DNA of 64,000 nt from Nioella sp. MMSF_3534 (GTDB taxonomy: Bacteria > Pseudomonadota > Alphaproteobacteria > Rhodobacterales > Rhodobacteraceae): positions 1 to 64,000 of the forward strand of contig NZ_JASHJX010000004.1 of NCBI RefSeq assembly GCF_030732985.1, in the 5' to 3' direction. A program made the position numbers and the translations under genes. The notes beneath the pieces were generated by a model, which worked only from the letters and a program-made list of their open reading frames with translations, searched no databases and was not told the origin of the DNA. Positions 7,694-11,851 of the stretch are shown here, in pieces. Position 1 is the first letter of the stretch. Every line of letters starts with the position of its first letter.

Positions 7694-9037
7694 TTACTTG
7701 CCGTCATCCACGGGGGCGGTGCCGCCACCGGACCCGGCGCCACCGCCGCCCCCGATGATCAGCTGCGCCTCTGGGTAGCCCACCTCGTCATATGTCTGGA
7801 TCGTGCCGACATAGATATCGTAGCGGCCCTGCGGCGGGGCGCCCCAGACGAGGCTCGGGTTGATCCCGCCTGCGCCATTGTCGTCGCAATACCACTGCCC
7901 GTCCGGTCCGTTGATCAGCAGGCTGGTGTCGCTCTGCGACTCGACCGTGAAGGACAAGGGCGCGCCGACGCCCTGGTAATAGACCTGGAAATCCGGGGCC
8001 TCGGCCACGTGACCGGCACAGCCCTGCCCGGCGCTGGAGGCTTCCAACAGACCGCCGGCCAACAGATGCTGAAGGTAGGGATCAGGCGAGAAGCCGCTCG
8101 ACAGGGTTACATTGCCGAAGGTCGGCGGCAGGTTGTAGTTGGGCTCGCTCGGGCGCAGATCGACCTGCGGGGTTTCGCCCGCCATGGTCGCCGCGATCCA
8201 GTCCTGATAGGCTGACACACGGGTATAGGTGCCGTAGTGGTCGCCATCCTGGTGGCAGTAATTGCCGCCCGACACCAGCCCGACCTGTACATATCCCTGC
8301 GTGTCAGCGGCCAGCAGCGGCCCGCCGCTGTCGCCCCGGCAGGCATCGGCAACGGCCTCCTGGAAACCGGCGCAGATAACACCTGCACCCGCGTTCGACG
8401 AACACAGTTGGTTATGCACAATCGGCACCGCCGCGCCGAGCAGCACCTGCGACGTGTCCCACATCGACGGCGGTGAAGAGGTCGCGCGCTCTGCCTGGGT
8501 CAGGGGTCCGCGGCCGCGCGAGATATGCGGTGGCGGCGTCAGGCCCCAGCCGATGATCACGGTCTGATCGCCAATCTGTTCCACCACCGGGGCCAGCGCC
8601 GCATCCGACAGGCGCACCGGGGTGATGCCCGTGGGGCGGGCAAGCTCCAGCAGGGCAATGTCGTTGACGCCAACCCCCTGATACCCGGAATGCAGATAGA
8701 CACGAGACACGTCGAAGGCCGTGCCCCCGCCCTGCAGGCTGGAGGTGTTGGCGTAGATTTCCAGCCCGCTCGGATTGTTGGGGGCGACCGTATCGACGCA
8801 ATGAGCCGCGGTCAGCACCCACCTGTCCGCAATCACGGTACCGCCGCAGAAATGCCCGTCGAACCGGCTGCGTGCATTGGCCTGGTTCAGCGACACCATC
8901 CAGGGAAAATCGCTGATCGACACGGCACAGCCGCCCATCACCCGGTCGCCCGAGCAAAACTCCTGCGCCTCGGCGGCATCGGGGGCTGCGAAGAAACCGG
9001 CCGTCAGAAGGGCGGCACCAAGGGTCAGAGATCTCAT
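7694..9037 (-). CDS. Secreted trypsin-like serine protease (S1) with C-terminal accessory domain
   Basis: 447 residues. An N-terminal hydrophobic stretch ending near AAEAQ looks like a Sec signal peptide. The S1 domain has the complete triad: His79 in VLTAAHC, Asp126 in NDIALLEL and Ser237 in RGDSGGP, plus paired cysteines. Residues about 326-430 form a separate beta-rich domain with GCAGHVAEAPDFQ, GPDGQWYC and GRYDIYVGT, which is also found at the end of the neighbouring caspase-like protein. A Gly-rich tail ends the chain. The ATG at 9037 has AAAGG 9 bases upstream, better than the ATG at 9046. It lies about 60 bases downstream of the caspase-like gene on the same strand, so both are probably co-expressed and exported. 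Confidence 0.88.
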   Translation of the reverse strand: MRSLTLGAALLTAGFFAAPDAAEAQEFCSGDRVMGGCAVSISDFPWMVSLNQANARSRFDGHFCGGTVIADRWVLTAAHCVDTVAPNNPSGLEIYANTSSLQGGGTAFDVSRVYLHSGYQGVGVNDIALLELARPTGITPVRLSDAALAPVVEQIGDQTVIIGWGLTPPPHISRGRGPLTQAERATSSPPSMWDTSQVLLGAAVPIVHNQLCSSNAGAGVICAGFQEAVADACRGDSGGPLLAADTQGYVQVGLVSGGNYCHQDGDHYGTYTRVSAYQDWIAATMAGETPQVDLRPSEPNYNLPPTFGNVTLSSGFSPDPYLQHLLAGGLLEASSAGQGCAGHVAEAPDFQVYYQGVGAPLSFTVESQSDTSLLINGPDGQWYCDDNGAGGINPSLVWGAPPQGRYDIYVGTIQTYDEVGYPEAQLIIGGGGGAGSGGGTAPVDDGK

Positions 9038-9099
9038 ATGGCTCATCCTTTCATACCCTGTTTGTCCGGCCCGTGGTCCAATGCGGGCCGCGAAATGAC

Positions 9100-10500
9100 C
9101 TAGTCTATTGCCCGCTCGATCGTTGCCTCGGGGTTCAATGCGATGGCGGGCGGCGTTTCCGAGGGCGAGGTGACGATGAACCCGACGCCCGCACCTGCGT
9201 CATCCTGAACGACCGGCGCGACGGCCACCGGCTCGGGCAACAGCGCTTCGACGATCAGTTCGGCATCGGGCGCAACCGGCAGTTCGCGTTCGGTGCCGAC
9301 CCAGATGCGGTAACTGCCCGCGCTCAGGTCTGACAGGGCCAGAACCGGCGGCGCGCCATCGGACATGGTGCCACGACACAGCCATGTACCATCGGGGCGG
9401 CGCATCACCAGCACCGTATCCTCATCGCTGAGCGTCGTGATCCTGAGCGGGCCAATCGTCTCTTGCCAGTCGAGCTGGAAATCCGGGCTGCTGGCCACGA
9501 AGCCATAACAATTGCCGCCAAGCTGCGAGGCATCCTCGTACCCGCCTGCCAGCATATCCAGCGCCATGGCGGTGTCCGGCGGGCCGGCGGCCAACTCAAT
9601 CGTGCCGTACAGGGGCTCGCCCTCGTCCTCGATCCCCCGGCCGGGCTTGCCGGCACTGGGCAGACCGGCCTCCTCCACCTGCACCGGCACCTCGTTTGTG
9701 TCGGCGCGCCCGTCGCCGATCTGGAATTGCGGTGGAATCTCTCCGGCAAAGGCAAATTCCAGCCACGGCACCTGGCGGCCCTGCGTGGCGTTGCGCACCG
9801 CGAAGGACACCTCGTACATGATGTCGTCGATCCGCCGCGTGGGCCGTTCCAGCGCCTGCAACAGCGCCCCGGTAAAGAGCCCGTTGCGCCCCTCGCCATC
9901 GGACGAGGTCTGGCCGGGCGCGGCGGCATAAAGGATGAAGGCGGACGCGCCCGCAGGCGTATCCATCGCCGACAGGCCGATCCCCAGATCGCGCCCGCCG
10001 CCGCGTTCGGGCAGCGGGTTGTTGCGGCAGGCATCGAGGATGATCACCCCCGTGGCCCCGGTCGCGGCCAGCCGTTCCAGAAGGCGCGGCGCGGGATAGG
10101 CCCAGTCCGGCACATCCTCGGCGAAGGCGATTTCTTCGTCATCGGTGGGGATCAGGTAATTGGTGCCCTTGTATTCAACCCCATGCCCGGCAAAGTAGAA
10201 CACCGCCAGATCGCCGGGGTTCAGACTGCGGGTGAAATCGCGGATCGCCACCTGCATCCCGTGCAGATCCTGATCCAGCATCGGCCCGTCGCCATGCACG
10301 CGAAAGCCGATCTCGGTCAGCCGTTCGGCCATGTCGGTGGCGTCGTTGACGGGGTTGATCAGCGGGCTGGAGGAGTATTGGGAATTGCCAATGATCAGCG
10401 CAACCCGTTCCGCCCTGAGCTGCCCGGGCAGGGACAGCCCGATCAGAGCCGTCAGAACAACCAGCAGACTATGAGCCAGAAACCCGCGGGGGCGCACCAC
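9100..10500 (-). CDS. Secreted caspase-family (C14/metacaspase-like) protein
   Basis: 466 residues with an N-terminal signal peptide (hydrophobic residues 9-30). The caspase-fold part starts ERVALIIGNSQYSSSPLINP and contains the catalytic dyad His106 in YFAGHGVEY and Cys158 in ILDACRNNPL. Residues about 318-420 form a second domain sharing NCYGFVASSPDFQ, RPDGTWLCRG and GSYRIWVGT with the C terminus of the adjacent trypsin-like protease. Bacterial members of this family cleave after Arg/Lys, often with calcium; the substrate here is unknown. The start is GTG at 10500 with GGGAG 7 bases upstream. A palindrome overlaps the likely promoter. Pairing with a trypsin-like protease suggests a proteolytic cascade (inference). 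Confidence 0.88.
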   Translation of the reverse strand: MVRPRGFLAHSLLVVLTALIGLSLPGQLRAERVALIIGNSQYSSSPLINPVNDATDMAERLTEIGFRVHGDGPMLDQDLHGMQVAIRDFTRSLNPGDLAVFYFAGHGVEYKGTNYLIPTDDEEIAFAEDVPDWAYPAPRLLERLAATGATGVIILDACRNNPLPERGGGRDLGIGLSAMDTPAGASAFILYAAAPGQTSSDGEGRNGLFTGALLQALERPTRRIDDIMYEVSFAVRNATQGRQVPWLEFAFAGEIPPQFQIGDGRADTNEVPVQVEEAGLPSAGKPGRGIEDEGEPLYGTIELAAGPPDTAMALDMLAGGYEDASQLGGNCYGFVASSPDFQLDWQETIGPLRITTLSDEDTVLVMRRPDGTWLCRGTMSDGAPPVLALSDLSAGSYRIWVGTERELPVAPDAELIVEALLPEPVAVAPVVQDDAGAGVGFIVTSPSETPPAIALNPEATIERAID

Positions 10501-10597: not shown

Positions 10598-11851
10598 TCA
10601 AAGCGTCAGGAAAATCTGAAGGTCTGCCACGTTGGTTCCCGTTGCCCCGGTCATCAACAGATCGCCCGACGCCGCCAGCGCCGCGTAGCTGTCGCTGTTG
10701 GCCAGCAGGGCCGTCGGGTCGGCCCCCGCCATGCGCATCCGGCCAAGGCTGTCCTGATCCACGATGGCCCCTGCGGCGTCGGTCGGTCCGTCTCGCCCGT
10801 CCGTGCCGCCCGACAGGAACAGCCAATCGCCCGTCAGGCCCCGTTCCTCGGCCAGCAGCGCCACCCGCAGCGCCAGTTCCTGATTGCGCCCGCCGCGCCC
10901 GTCGCCCTGCAAGACGACCGTGGTTTCCCCGCCAAAGAGCAGCGCCGTGCCGGGGGGCGTGGTCGCGGCAAGGGTCAGCACCTGTTCTGCCGCCGTCGTT
11001 ACCGGGCCGATCAGGGGGGCCTCGACCACCCGAACGGGGCGCGCCGCCGCAGCCGCCATTGCCGCGACGCTGATCGCGTTCGACCCGACAAGCGCCGCGT
11101 CAGGGTCGGGCAGTGGATCGCGCAGCGCCTCCCGCGCCATCGCCTCCCGCGCAGCCTCTGGCATCCGCTCCCAAATGCCAAGCCGGTGCGCGACGTCCCG
11201 CGCGGTGGCCAGATCGGCAATCGGCCCCACCGTCGGACCACTGGCAATCACCCGCAGATCATCGCCCACCACATCCGACAGGATCAGGCTGCGCACCGGG
11301 GCAGGGGCCGCCAACCGCAACAGCCCGCCACCCTTGAAGCGCGACAGGGCCTGCCGGACGATGTTGGTCTCTTGGATATCGGCACCCGAGGCCAGAAGCA
11401 GCCGGTTCACTTCGGCCTTGTCCGCCAGTGTCAGGCCCTTGACCGGCCCCGGCAGCAAGGCCGACCCCCCGCCCGAGATCAACGCCAGCACCATGTCCCG
11501 CGCACCCGCCTCGCGCAGCAGCTTCTCCACCGCCAGCCCGGCAATCACGCCGTTGCCATCGGGCAGCGGATGCCCGGTCCCGTAGCAGGCCACGCCCGCG
11601 ATATCCCGGTGGTTCTCGTAATTCGTGACGATCAGGCAGCGGGTCGGCACGCCCGCCGGCACCGCAGACAGTGCCGCCTTCATCATCCCGTTCGCGGCCT
11701 TGCCCACGGCCAACAGGATCAGCGTTCCGCCCTCAGGCACCTCGACCGGGCGCGCCTTCAGGGCCTCAACCACGGCCCGCACCGGGTCGGCGGCGGCGAC
11801 ACCGGCCATGAAAAGCTCGGTCAGTTCGGATCGGATCGCGTCATGCGCCAT
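10598..11851 (-). CDS. Glycerate 2-kinase (MOFRL/GckA-TtuD family)
   Basis: 417 residues, the usual length for the type-2 glycerate kinase family: an N-terminal DUF4147 domain and a C-terminal MOFRL domain. Visible motifs are LAVGKAANGMMKAAL, ALISGGGSALLPGP, SDVVGDDLRVIASGPT, FGGETTVVLQGDGRGGRNQE and LFLSGGTDGRDGPTDAAGA. It phosphorylates glycerate to 2-phosphoglycerate in the cytoplasm, in serine-cycle, tartrate or hydroxypyruvate metabolism. Some relatives are annotated as hydroxypyruvate reductases (TtuD), but motif content favours kinase activity. It stands alone between the protease pair and ubiB. Confidence 0.9.
   Translation of the reverse strand: MAHDAIRSELTELFMAGVAAADPVRAVVEALKARPVEVPEGGTLILLAVGKAANGMMKAALSAVPAGVPTRCLIVTNYENHRDIAGVACYGTGHPLPDGNGVIAGLAVEKLLREAGARDMVLALISGGGSALLPGPVKGLTLADKAEVNRLLLASGADIQETNIVRQALSRFKGGGLLRLAAPAPVRSLILSDVVGDDLRVIASGPTVGPIADLATARDVAHRLGIWERMPEAAREAMAREALRDPLPDPDAALVGSNAISVAAMAAAAARPVRVVEAPLIGPVTTAAEQVLTLAATTPPGTALLFGGETTVVLQGDGRGGRNQELALRVALLAEERGLTGDWLFLSGGTDGRDGPTDAAGAIVDQDSLGRMRMAGADPTALLANSDSYAALAASGDLLMTGATGTNVADLQIFLTL

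Follow-up and report, generated by a model that had tools for sequence, protein, structure and literature searches.

Two genes lying side by side in Nioella sp. MMSF_3534 encode unrelated proteases, one caspase-like (family C14) and one trypsin-like (S1A), which end in similar domains. Do the two enzymes work together, and can this be read from the domain that they share? The genes are found at 7694-10500 of the stretch of DNA analysed here (the window: 64,000 nucleotides, positions 1 to 64,000 of contig NZ_JASHJX010000004.1). An earlier note, made from the sequence alone, had described both proteases as catalytically complete and exported, had taken the common domain to bind a common partner, and had proposed cooperation in a cascade of either direction.

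We tentatively propose, with somewhat less than even confidence, an extracytoplasmic two-step cascade with the caspase as the probable activator of the S1 zymogen and the tails, similar to the bacterial pre-peptidase C-terminal (PPC) domain, as general appendages. In this view, a C14 protease of paracaspase/metacaspase type and an S1A zymogen of trypsin type would both leave the cytoplasm, for the periplasm or the exterior. The caspase is predicted to cleave behind Arg or Lys; it would open the Arg35-Val36 bond of the zymogen and release Val36-Met-Gly-Gly as the new N-terminus, the step by which S1A enzymes mature, and the active trypsin would then carry out bulk cutting. The PPC-like tails may aid stability, retention or inhibition until cut off, and would not act as a private docking domain. 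For bacterial caspase homologs beyond the cytoplasmic conflict systems, few functions are established. An apparently exported caspase beside an S1 zymogen offers a concrete candidate substrate, at the level of one peptide bond (Arg35-Val36); a cut there by the caspase would establish caspases as initiators of a zymogen cascade in a bacterial envelope.

The protease pair and its activation site

Both open reading frames (ORFs) were identified where the earlier note had placed them. Their features are as follows (residues of the S1 protease are counted from its first ATG).

9100..10500, minus strand: caspase gene (Peptidase_C14), 466 amino acids, GTG start, upstream gene of the pair (ORF and Pfam)
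10411..10500, minus strand: caspase signal peptide, residues 1-30, ending GQLRA/ER (by eye)
9754..10407, minus strand: caspase catalytic domain, residues 32-249 (PF00656, 130 bits; motifs in 9 of 9 pairs)
10183-10185, minus strand: caspase His106
10027-10029, minus strand: caspase Cys158
9250..9615, minus strand: caspase PPC-like C-terminal domain, residues 296-417 (alignment with the S1 tail; profile E 6.6e-38)
7694..9046, minus strand: S1A (trypsin-like) protease gene, 450 amino acids, downstream gene of the pair (ORF and Pfam)
8963..9046, minus strand: S1 protease signal peptide, residues 1-28, ending AAEAQ (by eye)
8939..8944, minus strand: zymogen site Asp34-Arg35/Val36-Met-Gly-Gly, with Arg35 at 8942-8944 and Val36 at 8939-8941 (kallikrein alignment)
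8183..8941, minus strand: trypsin catalytic domain, residues 36-288 (PF00089, E 2.5e-42; kallikrein alignment; motifs in 9 of 9 pairs)
8801-8803, 8660-8662, 8327-8329 and 8345-8347, minus strand: S1 protease His82, Asp129, Ser240 and Asp234 (position 189)
7754..8125, minus strand: S1 protease PPC-like C-terminal domain, residues 308-431 (alignment, model, fold matches)

The upstream protein matches Peptidase_C14 (E 7.2e-37, with a score well above the PF00656 cut-off of 21.4 bits) and the downstream one Trypsin (E 2.5e-42). The caspase has its His106/Cys158 dyad and the S1 protease its complete triad. Counted from a second ATG (Met4, ATG at 9037), which is possibly the true start, the triad residues His82/Asp129/Ser240 become 79/126/237, and it is from Met4 that the residue numbers of the earlier note are valid. 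In 9 of 9 aligned pairs both the dyad and the triad are kept, as are DRVMGG and DACRGDSGG. Hydrophobic N-termini ending ..AEA/Q (S1) and ..LRA/E (caspase), judged by eye to be signal peptides, suggest that both proteases are apparently exported, as had been claimed. The caspase-to-S1 spacing is 53 bp with both genes on the minus strand, and the two may be co-transcribed.

The pair is conserved in one small group. A scan of the genomes of 84,980 species with a profile of the S1 tail gave 314 relatives, the best 80 loci of which were analysed. A caspase-then-trypsin pair with a tail on each gene, in the same order as in the window, occurs at 8 of these 80 loci, so that nine distinct genomes hold it when the window is included. 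All eight loci come from Nioella, Alterinioella or close Rhodobacteraceae kin (the nearest named pairs are those of Nioella sediminis and N. ostreopsis, Rhodobacterales), and five are contigs of the five genus relatives in a set of 61 genomes. Because the pair loci were found via the S1 tail, nine of nine is a biased count; six of six genomes of the genus is freer of bias. In the 61-genome set, full-length relatives of the caspase are present in all six genus genomes (the window's own included) and the full-length S1 protease in the same six. Full-length matches were found only within the genus; elsewhere the catalytic domain alone or the tail alone is matched. A scan of viral contigs with the caspase returned no relatives. 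We can thus rule out a pair unique to one genome, and the adjacency on which the earlier note had built is a conserved one.

We recognize the S1 protease as a member of S1A by its triad, its Arg35/Val36 zymogen N-terminus and an Asp at position 189, all present in nine of nine orthologs, as is the motif DR/VMGG. In alignment with plasma kallikrein, Val36 corresponds to residue 1 of the mature enzyme and Asp234 to position 189. For the caspase, the nearest solved structure by sequence is the paracaspase MALT1, with Asp residues of which Asp53 and Asp156 align; both are kept in 9 of 9. We take the aligned MALT1 residues to have the role of an acidic S1 pocket, and Asp53 and Asp156 are presumed to form such a pocket for Arg or Lys. 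In metacaspases a pair of Asp in the pocket makes room for basic residues, and bacterial caspase homologs cleave after such residues (PMC6426788).

Direction could also be the reverse, with a self-activating trypsin processing the caspase, for example in the linker between its catalytic domain and tail. A model is the LapX/Lap system, in which an S1A enzyme acts on its PPC-tailed neighbour (PMC10709122). The caspase linker contains a conserved KPG(R/H)GI, in which 8 of 9 sequences have Arg, and an enzyme with Asp189 is expected to cleave after Arg or Lys. We regard this order as improbable: S1 proteases of the other pair types, where readable, are without Asp189 (15 of 15), and the recurrence of the pair would not be explained by it.

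Caspase and S1 pairs in other Rhodobacterales

Pairing of a caspase with an S1 protease recurs more widely than the Nioella-type pair itself. A profile of a second caspase type, scanned against 295 genomes of the family, gave matches in 24 genomes (30 loci). We call the 16 best-matching loci type ii (motif DACHS, once DSCHS) and those with a DSC[HN]SG motif type iii. An S1 protease gene is encoded directly downstream on the same strand in 13 of the 16 type-ii loci, and in one more (L185) the S1 gene is cut by the contig end; the paired type-ii S1 proteases are apparently exported. S1 genes were also identified in 4 of the 14 other loci (L186, L190, L191 and L194, type iii), to which L201, found separately, adds a fifth. 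L201 groups with type iii when the S1 catalytic domains are placed in a tree, but rows from outside Nioella are trimmed there to about 150-175 residues and long branches meet, so that this tree is no guide to S1 kinship. L156 and L158 are further examples of the order metacaspase then S1 protease.

A type-ii pair, such as that on plasmid NZ_CP085162.1 of Pseudosulfitobacter sp. DSM 107133, shares with the window the metacaspase-then-S1 order on one strand and the Lys/Arg zymogen site. Unlike in Nioella, the caspase is of another clade (mostly DACHS), the S1 partner is without Asp189, and no PPC-like tail was found in the type-ii loci scanned for it. Across 19 paired S1 proteases from outside Nioella, a Lys or Arg precedes the mature N-terminus in all 13 that are readable there, and position 189 is Thr or Gly, with Asp absent, in 15 of 15 readable. 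Such partners are thus unlikely to cleave their own activation site, and those of type ii probably need an outside activator, which would make them the cleanest system for examining the proposed activation. Asp189 is present in four of the six readable S1A genes that do not lie beside a caspase (n=7).

At E <= 1.2e-29, a cut picked after inspection of the list, 149 family genomes hold 17 S1A genes, nine of which adjoin a caspase (Nioella included) and seven do not; the genomes overlap those of the 295-genome caspase scan, and the sample is not independent. The remaining gene (G013:C146), which also has Asp189, is at a contig end and its adjacency is unjudgeable. HtrA-like matches start further down, at about 1e-20.

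In a quick caspase tree, built without bootstrap and carrying a long-branch warning, a branch with a value of 100 splits types ii and iii from a side on which the Nioella caspase stands among unpaired ones. This split suggests that the pairing probably arose at least twice; a single old pair with many losses is the conceivable alternative. Given the recurrent caspase-then-S1 gene order, the simplest reading is that the caspase activates the zymogen. The cascade of the earlier note is thereby made likelier, by these pairs in other genera, while its argument from the shared tail did not stand.

A broader proposal is a doubtful one at present: that exported caspase/S1-zymogen pairs of the Rhodobacterales arose at least twice (in Nioella, and in types ii/iii) and would form an extracytoplasmic cascade, with the caspase as initiator and a chymotrypsin-fold zymogen as amplifier. 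If true, bacteria would have in their envelope a counterpart of the blood-clotting or apoptotic cascades, and the two-component genes beside some type-ii loci may control it.

The surroundings of type-ii pairs also bear on a different role. A patatin gene is encoded directly before the type-ii caspase in L160 (775-7577), L163 (3129-7800) and L245 (the plasmid NZ_CP085162.1), preceded in L160 and L245 by genes for a response regulator and a HAMP histidine kinase; a further, divergent caspase gene and one with a CHAT domain also lie near the L245 pair. These genes would fit a defence or cell-death effector module that kills the cell or its neighbours on attack, as in cytoplasmic conflict systems, where caspase and trypsin effectors are common (PMC7159879, PMC8195603). 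The window caspase also matches the NCBIfam model of EACC1-associated caspases (E 1.6e-13, 50.7 bits, far below the cut-off of 140). The link to defence effectors made in the earlier note nevertheless finds little support, and we consider such a role very improbable. Both Nioella proteins are apparently exported. The conflict systems described in PMC7159879 and PMC8195603 are built around NTPases and adaptor domains, and no NTPase, sensor or adaptor domain was identified in either protein in Pfam and NCBIfam scans. PADLOC gave no defence-system protein that matches the window pair over most of its length, only partial matches (Avs1b, 15 bits; LmuA, 15.4 bits) and one to its general caspase model (45.4 bits, E 1.6e-12, residues 34-211).

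The neighbouring genes in the window also weigh against such a role: a DUF4147/MOFRL gene (10598-11851, minus strand) lies 97 bp upstream of the caspase, and the flagellar genes flgD and fliK converge on the pair from the other side. We presume the DUF4147/MOFRL gene to be of the glycerate 2-kinase type; in Alterinioella (L080) an ABC1-kinase gene takes its place. A sigma-70 promoter scan found no sites, and terminator-like sites number 2 observed vs 1.4 expected.

The shared C-terminal domain and the weighing of the proposed cascade

The tails of the two proteases are homologous. Caspase residues 296-417 and S1 residues 308-431 are 36% identical over 124 residues with one two-residue gap (two-sequence BLASTP, E 1e-23 without composition correction). 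Their Smith-Waterman score of 192, compared with a mean of 33 and a maximum of 59 in 1000 shuffles, rules out chance similarity. The paired motifs cited in the earlier note are all present, and the similarity that it had noticed thus reflects common descent.

We identify the tail as a divergent PPC-like beta-sandwich, on the basis of transitive homology and fold. No Pfam family, PF04151 (PPC) included, matches either window C-terminal part at E <= 1, and the window copies are below the PF04151 gathering score. Of 19 other tail carriers compared with Pfam PPC, five pass 25.9 bits (L022 33.8 as a protein, L070 33.3, L120 28.2, L149 43.8, and L087 41.0, the last with no single stretch above the cut-off alone), six match below it, and eight have no match within the limits used (10 and 0.1). 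L022 has four tandem copies that are 38-46% identical to the window trypsin tail. Since carriers pass PF04151 and the window copies do not, we name the domain PPC-like, kin by transitive homology.

A model of the trypsin tail from 76 aligned copies has a pLDDT of 95.7, and the fold results that follow are for this copy. The best structural matches are C-terminal beta-sandwiches of subtilases and collagenases (Z 8.8 for 5sv5, whose PDB title names PPC, 9.2 for the ColG CBD, 9.1 for KP-43 and 9.3-9.4 for Tk-SP), with Foldseek E values of 1.8e-5 to 8.6e-4 for 5fax, 1wmd and 5sv5. Other beta-sandwiches are close behind (PliG 8.6, GOLD 8.3, C2-like 8.3), so the fold match alone is insufficient for PPC identity. 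The model of the trypsin copy has the PPC fold, and both window proteins carry the domain at the C-terminus of an apparently secreted peptidase. Two Cys residues that are invariant across the 76 aligned copies probably form a disulfide; the pattern used for the loci included the second of them, and the L026 and L063 copies are without it. A C-[DN]-D-[DN] motif of most tail copies is absent from 9 of 9 caspase tails.

The search for this domain in other proteins, which the earlier note had suggested, revealed a widespread module. The window genome encodes 10 PPC-like copies (two in the pair, one on contig C23, one on C29 and a cluster of six on C93). In some proteins it stands alone or as 2-7 tandem copies; in others it is joined to OmpA, DUF2125 or trypsin regions. 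The best 80 tail loci are mostly alphaproteobacterial, with one from a metagenome-assembled genome labelled Anaerolineae. We therefore reject the shared tail as evidence specific to a partnership. A shared homologous domain remains of the proposed partner-binding domain; the step from sharing to binding and joint work lacks support.

Trypsin tails form one clade (branch support 100/96) and caspase tails another (100/99). In a tree of 114 copies, the trypsin tails fall together with that of a different S1 protease, L137 (99/96). A second tree has 97 rows, after removal of 17 (two for their very long branches, 15 as members of a Nioella-expanded subfamily). In this tree, the hypothesis that trypsin and caspase tails share one clade has an approximately unbiased (AU) test p of 0.46, and of 0.198 with L137 added. 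The trees are thus compatible with a joint clade without establishing it, and the same holds for a tail duplication within the operon.

Other architectures of the module were noted. L137 (5788-7128, the same as L025) and L130 (4114-7131, Roseibacterium) encode a PPC-like domain and a C-terminal trypsin domain in one ORF, and no caspase was found in the stretches around them. Nioella clusters of PPC-like genes (L062, 25-3348, on G000:C93; L065, 27-4122; L067, 5093-7510; L068, 5920-9030) encode the domain alone or 3-5 in tandem, several with Ala-Pro repeats, and these copies are a separate expanded subfamily (100/100 in the 114-copy tree). One ORF of L066 (3191-5392, minus strand) combines two PPC-like domains, a ricin-B-like region (just below the Pfam cut-off) and OmpA; it is possibly an envelope anchor built from the module.

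Several of the results weigh against the cascade with the caspase first. Mean pairwise identity is 0.79 for the S1 catalytic domain, 0.73 for the S1 tail and 0.87 for the caspase catalytic domain; at 0.58, the caspase tail has the lowest value of the four and is thus ill-suited to be a tight docking surface. With so many copies in the genome, sharing of the tail says little on a common partner. The full-length model of the caspase is poor (pLDDT 66.9) and therefore silent on the domain arrangement. S1 zymogens commonly have a basic residue ahead of the mature N-terminus, and the site is therefore no proof in itself. In Nioella the S1 protease has Asp189, which makes self-activation possible and the caspase maybe unneeded, so the case is weaker for Nioella than for its counterparts. 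The Nioella-type pair was seen only in Nioella/Alterinioella and close kin. Among type-ii loci, L173 is without a downstream S1 gene, the contig of L184 ends too early, and the caspase frame is interrupted in 2 of 14 pairs (by one TGA in L177; L185 is in pieces). No S1 gene was identified in the available stretch at 10 of the 14 other loci, nor within a flank of at most about 1.5 kb at 15 other caspase loci on the Nioella side of the tree (L008-L021, L031). The choice of the S1A cut after the fact belongs here too.

Some of these results speak for two independent secreted digestive proteases, neighbours through a shared part in extracellular protein breakdown, each with a generic tail, the S1 protease activating itself at Arg35. 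The tail is indeed generic, found elsewhere alone, in tandem or in other fusions; Asp189 and the Arg before Val36 make self-activation chemically possible; and the 15 caspase loci on the Nioella side lack a visible S1 neighbour. We rate this explanation as rather unlikely. An exported C14 protease would, in our opinion, be odd for bulk digestion, and the adjacency recurs with another caspase clade, above what random placement among about 4000 genes would give by a rough estimate.

Relation to known systems

A literature search found no paper that joins a caspase with the term "pre-peptidase C-terminal". Caspase-S1 pairs were absent from the titles and abstract openings listed; most subscription papers lay outside the search, so such pairs may be published. 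The words trypsin and PPC do not occur in the main text of a survey from 2012 that covered 671 sequences (PMC3501461).

The tail compares with the PPC domain PF04151 (collagenase 5sv5; the subtilases KP-43, 1wmd, and Tk-SP, 3afg) in having the same beta-sandwich (Z 8.8-9.4, rmsd 2.8-3.1 over 94-100 residues) and a C-terminal position on peptidases, here apparently exported ones. Unlike PF04151, the window copies give no match at E 1 and have two conserved Cys, and the caspase copy has lost C-[DN]-D-[DN].

The window caspase shares with the prokaryotic caspase homologs (orthocaspases/metacaspases, C14) and MALT1 the C14 match, the His/Cys dyad and the aligned acidic residues; it differs in its C-terminal PPC-like domain and in the adjacent S1A zymogen gene. 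A caspase-trypsin fusion described in PMC6426788 likewise links both folds, in one polypeptide. In that fusion the caspase is without the canonical HC dyad, whereas the window pair consists of separate proteins with complete catalytic motifs.

A precedent is the LapX-Lap pair of Vibrio cholerae (PMC10709122), in which the S1A protease LapX processes Lap, an M28 aminopeptidase with an inhibitory PPC tail; the two are adjacent in one operon and secreted. As in the window, two unrelated secreted proteases stand side by side with a PPC tail. The pairs differ in that PPC is annotated on Lap only, a metalloprotease is the partner there, and the first to act is the S1A enzyme, with its Glu/Gln preference; here the partner is a caspase and both genes have tails. 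The order of processing has been demonstrated for LapX-Lap. By analogy with LapX-Lap, such a pair can be a cascade, and an S1 enzyme can be its first step.

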